A stretch of 64,000 nucleotides of DNA, from contig JAJEKV010000052.1 in the NCBI GenBank assembly GCA_021234155.1, positions 2,660,254 to 2,724,253 on the forward strand. The letters run 5' to 3'. Position numbers and translations under genes: made by a program. This document shows positions 21,196 through 30,720 of this stretch, in pieces (the first letter of the stretch is position 1; every line of letters starts with the position of its first letter). This DNA comes from Isoetes taiwanensis (lineage: Eukaryota; Streptophyta; Lycopodiopsida; Isoetales; Isoetaceae). Under the pieces are notes generated by a model. It was given only the letters and a program-made list of their open reading frames with translations. It was not told where the DNA came from and did not search any database.

Positions 21196-21673
21196 ATGTC
21201 GCTAACTGGCCAGAATCATACCATGCTGCAACTGTCAAGATTCCTGCTAACCTCCAGCGCCGTTGAGTTAATGGATGAACCGAGGCACAAAGTGGAAGAT
21301 TATTTTCCACAGGTATCCACCAACAAGGGGCACTCAACTGATGACATGCAACAAGATCAATACGAAATAGGGTCCGTATTGTCTCCCAAGACTCCAGCAA
21401 GCCTTTCAAAAAAGGAGAGGCATTAGGAAAAGGGCATAGCTGATAAAAGAGACTCCAAGGAAGAAGCGGTTTTAATGAAGCTTTCCCAAAAGGAACACAC
21501 TTTGCAAGTGACTGCCTCACCAACCGCACTCCAGGTGAATCAACCATATCCTTGAGGATCCTCCAAATGAATTTAGAAATTAGAATCTTCTCTGCAAATG
21601 GAAGTCTGTCATACCCAAACCACCTGCAAATTTCGGCTTGGTGCATTTGGACCATGCAACCTTGACCACAGCA
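21196..21673 (-). pseudogene. LINE ORF2 segment, inverted part (second piece)
   Basis: Minus-strand frame encoding VAWSKCTKPKFAGGLGMTD through GILTVAAWYDSGQLAT, the region after the RT thumb. It continues directly from the piece at 29572-29840 once the DNA transposon and one copy of its 4-bp duplication are removed. Small frame breaks lie within it. Confidence 0.8.
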
Positions 21674-21702
21674 GGGTGAAAGTATGCTGGTGGGTAGCAA
21701 AA
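21674..21702 (+). repeat. Left terminal inverted repeat
   Basis: 29 bp, one mismatch (position 24) to the right TIR. Followed by CCAGCA/CCAGCACC hexamer repeats (21712-21740) and two TTTTTTCCCACCC words. Confidence 0.92.
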
Positions 21703-21848
21703 AAACGCGACGCCAGCACCAGCACCAGCACCAGCACCCAAAATACATTTTTTCCCACCCGTCATACACTTTTTTCCCACCCTTCACCTATATAGTACCA
21801 CCTATATTCTGCCCGTCTATTCGTCTAGCCGGTACCCGTTTATACAAT

Positions 21849-24540
21849 CATGACCTGTTTGCCGCCCCCGGTAATGAATGCGACCCCTGCAATCTGGAAC
21901 CACTAGACAAACGAACGAACTTTCGAATTTGTGTTTTTCCAAATCTCTCTTCCCCAACTTTCTCTACTCCGGCCAAGCAATCCGCGAATTTGCGCTTTTG
22001 GATTTCCACTTTATACAAACAGATCAACCATGGTAAAGAAGGTGATTGATCCGCCCGCTCAAGCAGTAATTCCAACGGAACCCATTATCCGGGTAAGCAA
22101 AAAGCAACAAAACAAAATTTCAATGGGTTTAAGGTTCAACCCTGTTAATTCGATTTTCTTGCATTCTTCCGGGCCGGAAAAACGCGTTCCCTTAAGACCG
22201 GGACTGGCTGATTGCGAACCGAAGAAGACTTCCATGCGTATCGCAGTCCGCCAAAACCGAGGGCGTTCATCCCTCTCAATTTCGAACAGATCTCATATCC
22301 GGCAGAGAGTACAATGAAGTTTGGGATACCAACGGGGTCATTCCCTGGCAAAACTTCCATTGACAAGGTGAGGCCGAGGACCGAAGAAGCTCTAATAGAG
22401 CTTCGAAAGCAAAATATACCCTGACGGGTTGAAGAACGAGAAGTTAGAAAGACGATATCATACCTATTTGCATTCAATAACCGCACTTTGAGAGCAAAGC
22501 GGGATCCACGAAGTTCAAGGTTAATTGGGCGTGATTCGCGGCAAAGAGTAGAGCCTACGGCATGGGTTAAAAGTGAACCCAGCAAGGTGCTCCAGCCAAG
22601 CGAAGCGAGGCCGCAAATCTCAACAAACCCACGGCACCGAAAGCATAGCGTAAAGGCCCGCCTGAGGAGGCACCGGTATTAAATTAGAAGGGAGGCCGTC
22701 CATTAGGAGCTTTGCATCAGGCCCAGCTTACGGCTTATGGGGGGAGAACATATCACGCTGGAAGTCCCGTGCAAAGATTTGCGGGGAAATCCTAGACACC
22801 GCAGCCGGGCTGATTTAGTCTCCAACAAGGAGCTAGTTGTCCAGTCGATCGAGGCTAAAGGGAGCTTTCTTCTTGGCTTCACAAGAGAAATTGCAGAAAA
22901 TTAAAGACAACATCTCACGTCTTCAAGCAGTCATAGGTCCCGATCTTTGGTGCCTCTGGCGAGCTCTTGAGCTTGGAGAGAGAAAAGACATGGCGGAGTA
23001 CATGCTCAAAGCCCTTGTTGAAATGGGGGTGGCCCAATAGATGAGGGATAGTTCAACAGTGGCCACTATAGGCTGGCGAGGTTGCAAACAATGAAGTGCG
23101 ACTTGCAAAAGCCAAGCGAAGATTTTGCGAGAATCTCAACAGCTTAGGGAACTTACAAGAGAGCTGGCCAAACTTGTGAGCATCTATCCCGTGACATTCA
23201 GGGTTGCCAATTGGAGATGAGGAGAGATGCTCCACATGCGGGCTGGCATTCCGGATGATTACACCCTAAGTCCGGGTTGAAATGTGGTCCGCGTATATCA
23301 TGTCACCGCCTCGAGTTTGCTTATGGAGAAGACACAATTGCCTCGAATGCTTTCGGAAAACAGTTCCAGCAGGCTTAGTGGAGGAATTGGGGAAGACAAA
23401 TCAAGCGGGAACCCTTATATCTTTGGGCACACACAAACAAATAGTTGAGACAATTGACCTAGATGAGGTGGTAGCTACAACTCCAGGGCAACGAACGAGA
23501 AAAAGGAAGCATGTGAAAACACCTCTTAGTAAAAGGACCCCTGACACAAGTCTACAAGGACTCGAACTCCACAAGCAAGAACAGCCAAAAAGGTACACGC
23601 TTTGTTTCACGAAGTGGGTACATTAGAAGCGCCGTAGGCGGTGAACGGCATGAGGCAAGCGGTCGGCCAGACATTGCGGCACACAAAGCAACGTGCTAAA
23701 GACACCAACACGGTCCAAAGCAGATTCCAGTGGTTACGGCGATCTTTGAGAAATACAATATAGTGCCAAATTCTGCGAACCTCTACAAAAGGCCTCCTCT
23801 AACACTTTGTTGATGCGGGCGGAACAAGGATGTTGAAGACCCAAATATAGTGGATAAGCGGTGAACAAGGTTGTGGGCGAATCACAAGGCTCACAAGGTC
23901 CGGGACCAAAAGGTTATAGAGCCCGAGTGAGGGTGAGTCGGATGATTCGGTTGATGAGGGCGTGCCTATAGGCGTGGCACTAGGAAAAAAAACCAACCGT
24001 CTAATGTAATTTATATGTACTTGTTTTCAGGCCCAATTTTGTTTGCACAAGACTTGCCAAAAACGATCAGTTAAAAGGTTTTTTGTGTAATACCATAATA
24101 TATGTTTTTTCCCCATTGTGTCCTTGTAAAATTTGTTTCGAGTTTCAACCTAGGGATCAATATGCATTTGCATGCGAGAAGGAGAAGAAGGCGACCACAA
24201 GTGGTGCTTCTTGAATCTAAAAGTCGAAGATAGTGAGAGAACCCGACGGATAATGAAGAAACCAAAGTGCAAAAACAAACTATTACATATAAAAGGTGCA
24301 ATCCAATATTTAAGTTCAAGCGGTTATTTTACTTGTCTTATTTCACTTGGCATAATGTCCCGCGGTTTAGGTTTGGTAATTGTAGCACCACTTTTGATTT
24401 TGCGGAGACCAAGGACCCTAAGCCACCACTTGGTGCGGGTTCGCGATAGCCGAGAAACACCCATACATTGGGGACGAGGGAGATACTAGTAAGGATGTAT
24501 CTAGCTATGGCTATCAGCACTCTCCATCACCGGTAGCAAA
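21849..24540 (+). pseudogene. Decayed or multi-exon coding region of unknown product inside the DNA transposon
   Basis: Plus-strand coding-like islands lie upstream of the FCP1-like gene. A candidate first exon at 22030-22092 encodes MVKKVIDPPAQAV...EPIIR with donor CGG|GTAAGC. Later islands include 22290-22370, a charged Arg/Ser/Pro-rich stretch at 22490-22680, a helical segment at 22866-23038 (EKLQKIKDNISRLQAVIG, LWCLWRALELGERKDMAEY), and a basic segment at 23470-23600. The region is GC-richer than its surroundings and broken by stops and frame changes, so no model can be trusted. It may be the upstream part of the FCP1-like gene. I do not recognise the protein. Confidence 0.4.
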
Positions 24541-24651
24541 AGATAAACCGAGTCCAAAGGGTCTTTCGCAAAGAACTTCCAAAGACGTCCGGATAGCACT
24601 TCCCGGCCAAGTCCAAAGACGCACAAGCACGATCACGGCAGCCCATCGATA

Positions 24652-25410
24652 GTGGTTGCAAACGTCGAGGGATGGACACCCAGACGGAAGTGCATGGTGC
24701 TTGACATAAATGGTGTACTGGCACAGACACAACAGAGGAGAATGAACCAAAAAATCTTGCATCCACTACAAACGAACCATGTTGTAAAAGAAACTGCAAG
24801 TAAGTACCTCATTTGCAGACCAGGGTATCATGAGTTTGTGGAGTGGGCACTGCAGAGGTTTGATGTTGTGATTTGGAGTGCTTCTCTACTTCGGAATACA
24901 AGGGATATGGTGGATGCATTGTTCCCTGAGTTGCAGACTAGATTCTTGAAGATATATGGTCAAGAGCATTGCTATGCATGCGAGCATCCAACCAGCACAG
25001 AAAAGCAACTCTTTTTCAAGGAGTTGAAGGTTGTTCTTGAGGATTTTCCTCAATATCATGGTATGATTTTCTTGGTTGATGACAGCCTGCACAAAGGGTT
25101 TCTAAACCCTGCACACACAACCGTTCCTGTTATGCCTTTCAAGGGGCAAGAAGAGGACAATTTTTTGCAGAAGTTTGTGTGTCCAGCTTTGGAATACTTG
25201 GCCTCTCATACATTACAGGAAACGATCTCACAAATTGATTTCACTGATGCATGGTTGGCCCCGGAGACAGTTGCAGTGCTGGATTACTGTCTCAACAACT
25301 ACCTTGTCTCGGCCTACTATATCCTCAATGCTCCTATTGAAGTACAAAGGCAGCTGCTGGGCACCCTTCCTGGCGACGAGCATAGATTTGAGGACTTCGA
25401 TGACTCGTGA
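24652..25410 (+). CDS. FCP1/NIF-domain (HAD superfamily) phosphatase-like protein carried by the transposon
   Basis: The frame encodes an FCP homology domain over nearly its whole length. Motif I is MVLDINGVLAQ, with the nucleophile Asp but Asn where the second Asp of DxDx(T/V) normally sits. Motif II is DVVIWSAS; the last motif is IFLVDDSLHKGFLNP. FCP1/SCP proteins dephosphorylate Ser/Thr, often in the RNA polymerase II tail; loss of the acid Asp may weaken or alter activity. The frame is open upstream to 24547, and the first in-frame ATG (24694) lies right at motif I. The true start is therefore probably in an upstream exon, and 24652 is only a nominal boundary. The stop is at 25408. The gene is intact to its end, unlike the opposing transposase. 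It lies inside the 7.9-kb element, so it is either a standard element gene or captured cargo. Confidence 0.72.
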   Translation: MVANVEGWTPRRKCMVLDINGVLAQTQQRRMNQKILHPLQTNHVVKETASKYLICRPGYHEFVEWALQRFDVVIWSASLLRNTRDMVDALFPELQTRFLKIYGQEHCYACEHPTSTEKQLFFKELKVVLEDFPQYHGMIFLVDDSLHKGFLNPAHTTVPVMPFKGQEEDNFLQKFVCPALEYLASHTLQETISQIDFTDAWLAPETVAVLDYCLNNYLVSAYYILNAPIEVQRQLLGTLPGDEHRFEDFDDS

Positions 25411-25529
25411 AGTAACCATTGTACACTACTTTTTTGTAATATATGCACGATTACTTTGTGTTATCTTGAGTATTGAGTGATCTTGTAAGATGTCTCAAAT
25501 CTTGGGTGTACAATTTTCTGTAATATATA

Positions 25530-25665
25530 TCAAGCTTACTCTCCAATACTACAAGCATTGTTTCCAATACTAAAATACTCCAATACAGCACTACTACAAG
25601 CATTGTTTCCAATACTAAAAGACTCCAATACTCACAAGCATTGTCTCCAATATAATGATCAGAAT
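25530..25665. repeat. Tandem CTCCAATACTACAAGCATTG-type repeats
   Basis: Four to five imperfect units containing ACAAGCATTGT(T/C)TCCAATA lie between the two converging genes of the transposon. Confidence 0.8.
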
Positions 25666-26465
25666 TTGAGACAAGTACACAAGTAACTACAGACCTGTTA
25701 AAATGATAAAACAACTAGGTCAAAGCATATTCAACCTTCATATGGCAGACTATCAAGGATCATCTGGTGAGTAGCCTGATCAAGGGAAAATCTGTTGGTG
25801 CCAGGAATCTGATTCATCTCAAACTTGATAGCTGATACGTGATGACTATACTAGAAGGTCAGACCTTTGTCTTCAAGTAGCTCCCAAGTACCATCGGGCT
25901 GGACAACATAGTACAAACCAGCCAACACATGTTCATCGACATTGAAGGTCTGACCCCAGCTATCCTTGACAATTCTGTCAAGGATATGCCTCGGCTTAAC
26001 ACATTTCACCACATAGAAATCTGCATTCTCCTGATTTCCCTCCTCGGCTACAACAGCAAAGTTATCACCTTCCTCTATGTTTCCACTAAGCCATTCTCCA
26101 TCACCTTCAAAAAATGCCTCATCGATTTCGTCTTCAGTACCTTCACCAGTAGACTTTTCTGGCTTTAGAGTAACATATTTCCAATTCTTTAACCTCTGCT
26201 TGTTCACACAAGATGACCAGTTTCCTTTCAAACAGTTACCACAGAAACAACTTAAACCTCTATGAGCCACCCTTGTGCTTGATTTGGCCAAGTATGTCCT
26301 GATGCTGTGTATTTCCTTGGTCCCTTCTACCACAGCGCATCCCGCCGGTCTGTCCTATCAACATCATCCTTTCCAATGAACCCGGTGCACGCAAAAAGCC
26401 GGCAACAACTATTGCGGTTCACATATACGATGCAGAGGCACAATCTGACATTACCGCGGCAGATA

Positions 26466-26533
26466 AAAGCGGATGAAAGCACTTTGTGAAGCGGATGAAA
26501 GCCGTTTAAAAGCGGATGAATGCAGATGAAAGC
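26466..26533. repeat. GCGGATGAAAGC repeats in the last transposase intron
   Basis: Four copies of (A)GCGGATGAAAGC or a close variant within 68 bp. Confidence 0.8.
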
Positions 26534-26871
26534 ATATTACCTCTTGATGTCCCCGTTGCTGGCACCTTCATTCCAACTCATAGCGAATTCACAGGCATCA
26601 GCAGCACCCCTAAATCTCACTCCATCATACTTGAGCTGCTCTCTAGTGAATGCCCCTTTAAGGACTGCCCCTTGCCCATCGTGCTCTCCCTTACCATGGG
26701 CTGTCCCAAAGAAATTCCATATTATTTCCTTCCCTAGCTCGTGGTGATATCTTGGTAGGAAATAGAATGGTCGGGCATATTTGAATTGGCTAGAACAACC
26801 ATCTGACCAAACTATATGCCTGGAGAATTCTACACCATTTGATACTAGCCATGAATTGTGCTTTCTAAGAC

Positions 26872-27185
26872 AAAAGCATGTTAGGGTGTCCCTTAAAAAG
26901 TATTATTTAGTGACTAAAAAGGTACCTAAAAAGGTAGCCAGGACTGGGTACTGGGTACCTGTATAATATCTCAATATAAGGTATGTTTTAGAACTTTTTA
27001 TATATATATTGATCTCCGATAGCATTATCTTTATCTTAACTTTGAATATTACCATGTCCTTGACTTTTATTTTGGATTTTTGTATTAGTTTTAATGAAAA
27101 GAAAAATGAGAAAGTACCCAGTTCAGAAGTACCTAGTGTATGTACTTTTGCAGGTTCCAAAAGTGGTACACCCTAACATGCTTTT
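26872..27185. mobile_element. MITE-like insertion (314 bp) in the transposase gene
   Basis: Ends are an 18-bp inverted repeat, AAAAGCATGTTAGGGTGT. Flanked by AC on both sides (26870-26871, 27186-27187). Removing it with one AC joins FVQLG to LRKHNSW in frame on the minus strand, across a conserved coding block. The interior carries repeated GGTAC words. No coding capacity. An intron reading is less likely because splice phases do not fit. Confidence 0.68.
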
Positions 27186-29542
27186 ACCCAATTGCACAAA
27201 AAGAGTGTCATGAAGCTTGTCATCACTCAAGTAAAAATGGGTTTCCTTCAATAGCTTTCTGGTAATTGTGTGACACGAATATCTTCAACATGGAACACAG
27301 ATATGAAATGAAAGCCTTCACTGCCGTTTTCTTGTAGGACAATCTAAGGACTGGCTTTGGTCCTTTCTTTTTTTTCCCCTTGCCATTTGAGGTCTCATCT
27401 TGTCTTTGCGGCTTGGAGGTGTCCCACCAGCTGCCTTGGATTTCTTACTTTTGTTTCCCTTCTTCTCAACTTGTCTTTGCTGACTTCAGTGTGTCCCACC
27501 AGCTGCCTTGGATTTCTTACTTTTGTTTCCCTTCTTCTCAGCTTGTGCTGCAGCTTCAGGCTGTGTTCCACCAGCTACCTTGGACTTCTTACTTTTGTTT
27601 CCCTTCTTGGTGGCATTGGATCTTTTCTTTCTGCTGCCACCTGGCACTTCCTTGGTAACGCAGGCGCAACTCCACCAACTTCTTCCTCGTCTCCACTTTG
27701 GAATCTGTAACAAGGTGCGTAGCATAAAAAAGAAGATCGGTATAAAAGTTTGAAAGCACAAAAGCAGTATTCAGCACATGACAGCACATATCAGCATGCT
27801 TCAGCAAGCAATAAAGAGAGTATTACCTTTTCAAACGTCTTCCATTCAAGCAAGAACTCGTGATTCTCTCTTTCTCTTGGACATATAGGAAGACTTTTTA
27901 TGCCACACTTCGACATGTGCGCATCAAAGCGATCATGTTTATACCATTCTTCACCCTCGCTCTTGCAAACCACAGCCCTCGAGCTTCGGCCGGTTGAGTC
28001 ATACGTATGTTGGGCGGCGGACACTTCTCACCGGTCCACCAGGACCTCAGCGGTGCACTTGCACTCTTCACCATGGAATCCAGTTTTCGCTGACCTTAAT
28101 GCATTCAGTGCTACCCTGGCATACTCCAACTTCATATGGTATATGCAACAACAGGTTTCCCTTTCTGATACTTTCTTTACATAAATAGGCTTCAACTTCT
28201 CGAAAGCCTTTAAGCAAACAGGGTGTTCAGGATGTGCCTTTTTGTATTGTTGATATAGCTGCAGCTGAATGGTGGCCTTTGGTTAGAAATATTTATGCAA
28301 TAATAGCAGAAAAAAAAAGTTTGTATGGAAACTTATACATGTGTGACCTCCATAAGGTGCAAGGGATAAGAAATTCGGAAGCCTGACTCTCCAACAGTGT
28401 TCACAACATCTTTCTTGCAAGGAGAGACTCTGTTGTTTTCTTTCCAGAATTCTGTTATGCTTTGCTTGCAAAGCGAGGGTGAGAGAATCGCACCTCAACC
28501 TCTTTTGGAAAGCGGACCACGCGGACCATTTCAAGGAAAGCTTCGATTTCCTTAATGCAAAGCGATTGCAATTGTTGACCTCATGCAACCTATCATAAGA
28601 AATATTGCACATGTATCAATGAACATATCCCAGCCAGCATCACTCAGCAGATACAAGCACTTGAAAGCATGAAGAAGCACAGGCATGAAGGCAAGAAATA
28701 GATGTACCTAACAGCCCTGCCATAGTGGAATTGCATCTCGAATTTGTGGAAGGAGCCATCACAAGTGTTGAGGTTCTGGCTCTCCAAATATCATGGTTCC
28801 TTTGCCTCTTTGTGGCTGCCATTGTCTGTTTCAAGTTGTTGAGCAGCACCCCGCTGCCTTGCACTCCTTTGGATTTGGCAAAAGTCCGGTTCTGAGATTT
28901 CCATTTCGTGGTGATGAACCACCCTCTTCATCACATCAGCCTTGAGTTCGGGTGAATGCTTTTTGGTGAGCTTATTGAAGTAATCAACTACTTGCTTGGC
29001 TATTTCTTGCCTGCGTCTCATGCTCAGATCCTCCCGCTCAACCGGCCGCTCTTTTCATCTTATTCCTAATCAGTATTCTCTCTTTCTCCGCTGCATCCAA
29101 TTTCTTGTAAATTGCGGAGGAAATCGGATCTTCACGCGTGATATTTCCCTGTGTTGCATTGACATCCAACAAATCGAACACCGTCTTTGGGATTCATCGG
29201 GCCAAAAATCCAATGCTAAACGTGTGATTGCCTCGGGCCGGTCTCTCGGGGGCGCCATGAAATTCCCAGAGAGGGAGGATAAGTGAATTGAGGGAGAATT
29301 TTCATGACCCATGGCGAAATAATCCAATTTGCAACGTAATACCACACCACTCGCGCGAAAATCCAGCCAAAAACCCACAATCATTTTCCTAACGGTTCAT
29401 TCGTGAGGTGGACGTGTTAGTACATGAAGGGCGTAAAAAAAAATGACGGGCAGTTACACCCATCAGCACCCCAAATTAAGCAAAAGCAGGGGTGCTTTAA
29501 GCGGGCTAAAACCCTGCTATAAGCATGCGTCCGGACGCATGC

Positions 29543-29571
29543 TTTTGATACCCACCAGCATACTTTCACCC
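29543..29571 (-). repeat. Right terminal inverted repeat, next to a 24-bp palindrome
   Basis: Inverted match to 21674-21702. Immediately inside, 29521-29544 is a perfect palindrome whose half-site is AAGCATGCGTCC; its last bases overlap the TIR by 2 bp. Confidence 0.92.
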
Positions 29572-29840
29572 AGCATGCTCCTCAGTCCCACCCCAAATAA
29601 AATTACGGACAATAGTAACAATCACCTGAAATTTTGACTGAGAAGCCAGAAGGGCAGAGGCCATATAGACATGGGAATTACTTAAAACATGCTTAGCAAC
29701 CGTTATTCGCGCTGGCAAAGAGAGCTTAGCAGTATTCCACCAAAATAAATGCTTACGCAACCCTTCTATGATAATATCCCAAGCATCAGAGGTAGAAATA
29801 TGAATGCCCACAGGAATACCAAGAAGTTTAGTAGCCTTTC
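29572..29840 (-). pseudogene. LINE ORF2 segment, inverted part (first piece)
   Basis: Minus-strand frame from the inversion junction: KATKLLGIPVGIHIS, DAWDIIIEGLRKHLFWWN, LSLPARITVAKHVL, VRNFIWGGTEEHA. This is the canonical plant LINE RT thumb region, continuing at 21673. Confidence 0.82.
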
Positions 29841-30720
29841 ATGAGGAAGCACCTTCCAAGGAAACTCTGCAACACAAGGAGGTACACCGATGGGACAGAC
29901 CTATTTGGCAAAAGATTGCTGGTACTCTGCCATTGGTTGCTCCAGAGGATATTGAAGGGTGCATGTGGGTTTCCCACCAGAGTGTTCACGAGCATAGGTT
30001 TGTGAACTCTATATATAGGCTGCTTGTCAATAGTGATATCCTTCCGCCATCCACTAGGTGGTCCCTTCAGCTTTCACCTCCTAATTGGAGACGTATGTGG
30101 ACTTGGGCTTGGGATAAATTACTCCATCCTAAGGTGGCGGTGCTTTGGTGGCAGATTCTTCACAGATGCCCTCGTGTGAACGTGCTTGTCCACAGATTTG
30201 ATCCTCCGATTAATCGACCTCGCCCCTTTGTGCAAGCAAAGGGACGAGACCATTGAGCATTGTTTCTTTTTATGTGTTCATCTCCAGCCTGTTTGGTCTT
30301 GGTTGCTTACTCTTTTTCATGTGACATTGACAAGCCAGCAAGTGCTTCTGGCTATTTATCCGGATGCTTGGAATAAGTTGCGGAGCCAAGCATTTCATTT
30401 AGCATCAGGATGGTTGTTGTGGTCCATCTGGAAGCGCAGAAGACTGTGTATCTTTCAGGGTTTGGATATTCCTCCTGCAGTTGTCCTCCAGAACGCACAA
30501 GCTAGAATCGCTAAGGCATACCATTGTTCTTAAACTTGCTCACCTTGGCGACAATTGATATTTGAGTCCTATCTGAGTGTGTTGTCTTATGCATAGGCTG
30601 GTGGTTCTACTCAGTGGATCATGATTATCCTCTGAGACTTTATTCCTGCCTCTGCATTTGTATTTTGCTTTTGGCTTGGAGTTTCAATAAAGTTTGTCGT
30701 TCTTCAAAAAAAAAAAAAAA
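29841..30720 (+). pseudogene. LINE 3' part: zf-RVT region, 3' UTR and poly(A)
   Basis: Plus-strand frames encode KEVHRWDRPIWQKIAG, STRWSLQLSPP, then WTWAWDKLLHPKVAVLWWQILHRC (split: W-x-W-x-x-x-H-P-K and W-x-x-L-H-x-C), the zf-RVT block. A change of frame near 30225 leads to DETIEHCFFLC and WLLWSIWKRRRLCIF. AATAAA at 30686 and A15 at 30706-30720 end the element. Confidence 0.85.

Follow-up and report, generated by a model that had tools for sequence, protein, structure and literature searches.

The window analysed here, a 64,000-nucleotide stretch of the genome of Isoetes taiwanensis (contig JAJEKV010000052.1), contains an inserted element in which a gene for an FCP1-like phosphatase domain lies convergent to a transposase gene. 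The question raised by this locus is whether that gene was captured by a single transposon or is a regular component of a transposon family, and what its product might do there. The initial annotation had seen here a DNA transposon whose genes, one for an uncharacterised transposase and one of FCP1/NIF type, converge, and this description was borne out, the element being of autonomous type. Based on our observations, we suggest that it is a decayed copy of a cut-and-paste family, whose members encode a transposase and a companion protein in which a RING finger and a NIF domain would be joined by splicing. The NIF domain would be an added module that has been kept, more likely as a binder of phosphorylated partners than as an enzyme. 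The probability that we assign to this reading as a whole is about 0.55.

The transposon spans positions 21674-29571 (7898 bp), ends in 23-bp terminal inverted repeats (TIRs; GGGTGAAAGTATGCTGGTGGGTA) and is flanked on each side by the target-site duplication (TSD) AGCA. When the flanks are joined without the element, a frame resembling the reverse transcriptase of a long interspersed nuclear element (LINE) is restored (NFIWGGTEEHAVVKVAWSKCTKPKFAGGLGM), which represents the empty site. Borders, repeats, duplication and empty site were all as the initial annotation had claimed. Together with the many copies described below, they confirm the element as a TIR (cut-and-paste type) DNA transposon.

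The Isoetes taiwanensis assembly (1,658,258,908 bases in 1110 contigs) was searched for further copies. The TIR, with up to two mismatches, matched 955 places (462 forward, 493 reverse), against none for a reversed control pattern, and so the TIR pair does recur, a point on which the definition of the element had been made to depend. Among the 100 exact matches listed out of these 955 places, 28 inward pairs lay within 30 kb; 21 were 6.5-8.1 kb apart and none less than 4 kb. Both TIRs and a perfect 4-bp TSD, different in each case, were present in all 11 whole copies, the window copy included, and likewise in locus L073 (TSD TATA); locus L072 was left out of this count as its left end is not in place. 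At 60 loci fetched by the end sequence the alignment started within one base of the terminus, partly by construction, and ran 0.7-1.7 kb inwards. The main alignments of copies to the window element have approximately 88-97% identity, and the family comprises several hundred copies in this genome.

The NIF region, whose recurrence at the same position had been proposed as a check, was found in the same place in 10/10 other whole copies, complete in nine and partial in one (L065). Linkage was then counted among the listed best-scored matches (137 NIF, 150 RING, 150 transposase), for which 150 of the 155 transposase matches were used; the first-look candidate counts of the module searches (4709, 2546 and 9415) are not copy numbers. 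RING followed by NIF on one strand formed 56 pairs and the two on opposite strands only one, with a chance expectation of 0.02. Every one of the 57 NIF-transposase pairs within 4 kb was convergent, and at 25 loci RING, NIF and transposase all stood in order. These counts show that the convergent RING-NIF/transposase arrangement is a property of the family.

Gene 1, on the plus strand, appears to be larger than supposed. The initial annotation had rightly placed a NIF domain opposite the transposase, but positions 24547-25410 are only the last exon region; the gene is predicted to start near 22030 and also encodes a putative RING finger that had been missed. Its exon 2 region is a single open frame of 432 amino acids in L065, and the RING part lies elsewhere in stop-free frames of up to 623 amino acids. 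By eye, L065, L073 and L074 (a more distant relative, see below) share the ligand pattern CxxC...CxHxxHxxC...CxxC, with eight zinc ligands of the C3H2C3 type, and the best solved chains were the E3 ligases AMFR (E=0.001) and RLIM (E=0.007). The profile PF13639 matched L065 with E=7.7e-4 and 20.1 bits, below the Pfam cut-off of 27.3; the score in L074 (17.7 bits) is also below it, which counts against the assignment.

The window copy of this gene is itself damaged. Its RING part is frameshifted, and the presumed acceptors ahead of exon 2 and of the NIF exon read CGG; ahead of exon 2, CAG stands in 6 of the 11 readable rows of the copy alignment. The window transposase is interrupted by a TAG at 25851-25853, where L073 reads through to a stop corresponding to 25731. 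The contrast of an intact phosphatase with a decayed transposase, drawn at first, is misleading, and the intact NIF frame in the window was rejected as proof of selection, because the RING part, also encoded on the plus strand, has lost its frame in this copy.

Do the RING and NIF parts belong to one protein? In a model built on L073, a predicted GTGAGT donor ahead of the TAA stop of the RING frame, two small exons and the acceptor TTTTGCAG would connect the frames of RING and NIF. The introns measure 96, 100 and 110 bp, the phases match, and the reading is open from the RING to the NIF stop; exon 2 of L073 shifts frame before the RING part, therefore the model begins at element position 1418. 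All three model donors are present in 13/13 aligned copies, and acceptors are lost or shifted in some, including the one before NIF in the window. An acceptor stands ahead of the NIF exon region, within which no start codon occurs early. On these grounds we infer that RING and NIF are joined by splicing into one predicted protein.

Several points tell against the fusion and for the best-surviving alternative, namely that gene 1 is in fact two genes, a conserved RING companion and a separate accessory NIF gene, each with its own promoter. Three of the six model splice sites (L073 donors 2395 and 2609, acceptor 2495) scored under the thresholds, and the sites were picked by hand. In 13/13 rows a TAA stands at one position behind the RING frame, and it is in frame in L065 and L073. 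Moreover, NIF adjoins transposases at other loci, which are known by their NIF and transposase matches. In view of the weak splice sites we regard two genes as a tentative possibility, opposed by the agreement of phases and the intron lengths of about 100 bp in L073, the GTGAGT donor conserved throughout, and an NIF exon region that lacks an early start codon and follows an acceptor.

The window NIF domain matches PF03031 with E=1e-20, and the solved chains that it matches belong to UBLCP1, a phosphatase of the RNA polymerase II carboxy-terminal domain (CTD); L075, an NIF outside the family, matches UBLCP1 as well as FCP1, another CTD phosphatase. Motif I reads DIN in 11 of 13 family copies (L062 and L067 are unreadable there) and DLN in both L075 and L076, so that D-x-N occurs in every NIF read. 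The second Asp of motif I is the general acid/base and is normally essential in the HAD/NIF phosphatase fold. In the alignment of three NIFs (family, L075 and L076), D6, S64, K111, D131 and D132 are kept and N8 stands in place of the phosphatase Asp. The domain of L075 (C1051) is 31% identical to that of the family, and the domain of L076 (C1034), which adjoins a transposase, is 37% identical to it. The family's listed copies score approximately 67-77 bits with the NIF profile, the best matches in the genome up to 196.

The initial annotation had envisaged a phosphatase acting on the polymerase II tail. Such canonical dephosphorylation by the transposon NIF is not supported, because every NIF read has D-x-N and not D-x-D. 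It is still conceivable that the domain is active despite the substitution and raises transcription of the element by dephosphorylating the tail or another target. The other catalytic positions, kept in all three aligned NIFs, and the identity of the matched structures, CTD phosphatases in each case, favor this; with Asn where the general acid/base is expected, we consider it unlikely. A phosphoprotein-binding module on a ubiquitin-ligase-like protein would fit the residue pattern better.

The age of the association can be judged from more distant relatives. The transposase of L074 is approximately 55% identical to that of the family in the core, 44% in the Cys-rich block, 38-52% in the C-terminal and 30% in the N-terminal part, and its element has a TIR of its own (GGGTCTAAGCAC...) and, by eye, the 4-bp TSD TAAC. 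A RING gene occupies the same convergent place (48% identity, E=5e-13), and no NIF was found in L074 (best E 0.88). Within 8 kb, 44 of the listed L074-type RING-transposase pairs are convergent, one is divergent and none is on the same strand; none of the 150 listed L074-type RING matches lies within 8 kb of the 150 listed NIF matches. NIF as a feature of the entire wider group is therefore not supported.

None of the 150 matches used (of 151) from the first NIF query lay within 12 kb of 138 transposase matches (out of 173, second pieces of a locus and unlisted matches having been dropped; three matches from the transposase search of the linkage count were added for the neighbour count). With a better NIF query (again 150 of 151 matches used), NIF and related transposases were seen in convergent orientation at C225:28773-33053, C156:77692-81695 and C1034:31727867-31730849, with a chance expectation of 0.26 neighbour pairs in any orientation. 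NIF was then predicted beside two further C1034-type transposases and was found at one of them, C1018:22923401-22925597 (transposase at 22925184). It was not found at the second, C1040:172566, and two other NIF-transposase neighbours, C1032 and C1059, lie on the same strand; both results count against the pattern. Match identities suggest two lineages here, one made up of C225 and C156, the other of C1034 and C1018. Since RING-transposase pairs occur without NIF in L074-type elements, and NIF recurs in what appear to be other lineages, RING plus transposase looks like the older core, and NIF like a module that was acquired either a single time, with later losses, or repeatedly. The recent capture proposed in the initial annotation is not supported, since the domain belongs regularly to the family and also lies beside related transposases at these four further loci.

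Whether NIF is maintained by selection was judged from ratios of nonsynonymous to synonymous substitution (dN/dS, omega), with codons containing gaps, stops or three differences excluded. For six pairs among L061, L063, L071, L072 and L073 the NIF values were 0.14-0.39, at 11-30 changes per pair. Of the four pairs tested for an excess of synonymous change, two gave P=0.004 and 0.001, the remaining two 0.06 and 0.08. For the transposase core omega was 0.24-0.48 (0.77-0.94 in pairs with the window copy). Other results weigh on the opposite side. Two NIF pairs with the partial L065 gave 0.50 and 0.81 on 80-81 codons; the eight NIF pairs, hand-picked from 78, have copies in common, and the choice of L072 and L073 for their open NIF frames biases the ratio. 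Constraint is weak on the RING part (0.47-0.92) and unclear on the Cys block of the transposase (0.42-1.47). Shared variants of 13 copies displayed no codon-position bias in any of seven coding regions, nor in either of two controls; this selection test was rejected, as it gave no signal. Because the bias is absent, most of the visible variation appears to be neutral decay, and so, by this measure, is most of the recent history of the copies. Selection on the cargo, the second option of the initial annotation, thus gains modest support from the dN/dS pairs, with small counts, and none from the intactness of the window copy; the ratios suggest selection on the NIF part.

These data also bear on the possibility that NIF is a passive, host-derived cargo, hitch-hiking in a family amplified for other reasons. 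L074, which has RING and transposase and no NIF, indicates that the domain is dispensable for some such elements, and close copies without codon-position bias would be expected of a passenger. Nevertheless, the low NIF ratios in six pairs, a convergent place that is identical in all linked pairs, and the additional loci with convergent NIF and transposase make this improbable in our view. As for a Pack-type event in which one element alone captured part of a host gene, no supporting point was found and the genome-wide recurrence of NIF at the same position leaves it practically without credit. A Pack-TYPE element, i.e. a non-autonomous one carrying a host gene fragment, was likewise rejected, as transposase and NIF travel together.

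Returning to the predicted RING-NIF companion, we propose the following mode of action. Judging from the TIRs, the TSDs and its motifs, the transposase would move the element by its 23-bp TIRs, with TSDs of 4 bp as the result. Gene 1 would produce a companion in which a coiled-coil-like part and the RING-H2 finger are followed by an acidic linker and, at the C terminus, an NIF domain of the FCP1/SCP-like HAD type. The RING and coiled-coil-like parts would have a ubiquitin-ligase-like or scaffolding role. In the NIF domain the Asp that serves as nucleophile is kept, as are Ser of motif II, Lys of motif III and the Asp pair of motif IV, and Asn stands at the position of the general acid/base; binding of a phosphorylated partner, e.g. 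an RNA polymerase tail or another phosphoprotein, would thus be more likely than efficient turnover. The RING could then ubiquitinate that partner or the transposase complex, in favor of element expression or transposition, and control of the element's transcription or of its silencing is the natural guess for the effect. More speculatively, the companion might be a phospho-directed ubiquitin ligase, whose weakened CTD-phosphatase fold reads a silencing factor or the phosphorylated tail of a polymerase (polymerase II or the silencing polymerases of plants), for the RING to mark, resulting in counter-silencing or transcription control; as a specific proposal we consider this rather doubtful. 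Ligase activity and targets are, of course, conjectural, as is the fusion, whereas the structure of the element, its copy number, the recurrence of its parts and the residue pattern were observed.

The transposase itself, with the SDG/HGKG-type motifs on the minus strand that had been reported, consists of a Cys-rich block and a core, in which DFAEN, SDD, SDGC and HGKGEHDG motifs are readable in other copies. Its pieces had no match above the cut-off in Pfam, nor had the core and Cys block of L074 in NCBIfam, and the core profile matched no PDB sequence. As candidates for a DDE/D catalytic triad of an RNase H-like fold, acidic residues D49, D108/D109, D143 and E182/D184 are common to three aligned cores, two of them from one family. 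Of 66 IMG/VR stretches that fit a pattern for relatives, none was confirmed. The protein may resemble a widespread group of unclassified or Sola-like eukaryotic transposases. In several transposases of other families (matches of ~55-60% identity) the match is broken by an in-frame TAG and resumes about 50 bp later, for which an intron at a common position in the core is the simplest reading.

The features of the element are collected in the table. The element is surrounded by a degenerate LINE reverse-transcriptase frame (window positions 21300-21673 and 29572-29900, minus strand), and no further modules of the family were found elsewhere in the 64-kb window. The insertion within its transposase gene is missing from 8/8 other copies with alignment across the site (L063 and L070 are deleted there). 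L072 (C907:25698300-25706700) has an open NIF frame, and its TIR at 25699117 is on the strand opposite to that expected.

Features of the transposon in the window, with the basis of each assignment
Feature	Positions	Strand	Basis or remark
Left target-site duplication, AGCA	21670-21673		Sequence reading
Left 23-bp TIR	21674-21696	+	Inverted-repeat match; recurs genome-wide
Gene 1, predicted exon 1 (MVKKVIDPP...), GTAAGC donor at its end	22030-22092	+	Copy alignment (model)
Gene 1, exon 2 region: N-terminal part, coiled-coil-like part, RING finger, acidic tail	22173-24004	+	Frameshifted in window copy
RING finger coding stretch	23222-23357	+	Frame broken in window copy; PF13639 match in L065
Gene 1, last exon region: stop-to-stop frame of 287 aa, NIF/FCP1-like HAD domain at 24688-25206	24547-25410	+	PF03031; motif I reads DIN
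Gene 2, transposase, several exons, decayed	25731-29258	-	SDG/HGKG motifs, comparison with L073
Insertion of ~320 bp in transposase gene, resembling a miniature inverted-repeat transposable element	26873-27191		21-bp inverted arms AAAAGCATGTTAGGGTGTCCC / GGTACACCCTAACATGCTTTT
Right 23-bp TIR	29549-29571	-	Inverted-repeat match
Right target-site duplication, AGCA	29572-29575		Sequence reading

NIF domains outside the family are plentiful and many are stop-free, e.g. C1051:7004776, C1093:617049 and C1027:14323407 (best 150 scored per search of more than 5000 first-look candidates). High-scoring NIF genes form clusters at C1018:22.9-26.8 Mb (142-172 bits), C1060 near 3.4 Mb and C1084 near 1.9 Mb, which are probably host CTD-phosphatase-like genes in local duplications. 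A search of phage records for the window NIF returned none.

The element adds a transposon family, with a transposase outside the existing Pfam models and an unexpected RING and D-x-N NIF companion, from a lycophyte, an early-branching vascular plant, and provides a case, open to testing, in which a transposon would have made a regulatory fold of its host into a tool of its own. It may also serve as a warning for annotation. According to the genome paper, repeats resembling plant proteins were removed from the Isoetes repeat library (PMC8566536), and for this reason elements of the present kind may have been annotated as if they were genes of the host.

Accessory genes opposite a transposase are already known, and we did not find a RING and D-x-N NIF companion described. 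Among the open-licence PMC papers listed, at the level of titles and the beginnings of abstracts, none reported a transposon with an NIF/FCP1, HAD or RING companion; no paper on Sola in Selaginella turned up among open-licence papers either, and the excerpts of PMC6431247 and PMC10541799 contain nothing on NIF. The closest parallels are Sola elements, which have 4-bp TSDs in common with the Isoetes family (11/11 copies, L073 and L074). Excerpts of the respective papers describe Sola2-Fanzor1 chimeras, whose TSDs are also 4 bp long (PMC3627910), and Sola1-1_Ec32 of Ectocarpus, where transposase and accessory gene occupy opposite strands (PMC12477816), and record Sola1 for the moss Physcomitrella (PMC9033089). 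As far as these descriptions go, the accessory proteins of Sola are Fanzor1, or a ParB-like protein with a DNA methyltransferase, whereas those of the Isoetes family are RING/NIF.

Mutator-like elements (MULEs) of flowering plants offer a second parallel, through a domain abbreviated PMD, which we take to be the plant mobile domain. Most members of one MULE group carry, in the words of an excerpt, 'PMD in antisense' to the transposase (PMC6446971). They thus share with the Isoetes family a recurring antisense domain gene, but differ, as far as that excerpt goes, in TSDs of 9-10 bp, a SWIM finger and another accessory domain.

The companion, in turn, can be compared with host proteins. The SCP/FCP1/UBLCP1 phosphatases (PF03031) share the HAD/NIF profile and most catalytic positions with the transposon NIF; they have D-x-D, whereas the latter is transposon-borne, has D-x-N and scores lower with the profile. 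RING-H2 E3 ligases, of which AMFR and RLIM are the best solved matches, have the zinc ligand pattern of the gene 1 RING, which in contrast to them stays below the Pfam cut-off and has a coiled-coil-like part and, apparently, the NIF domain attached.

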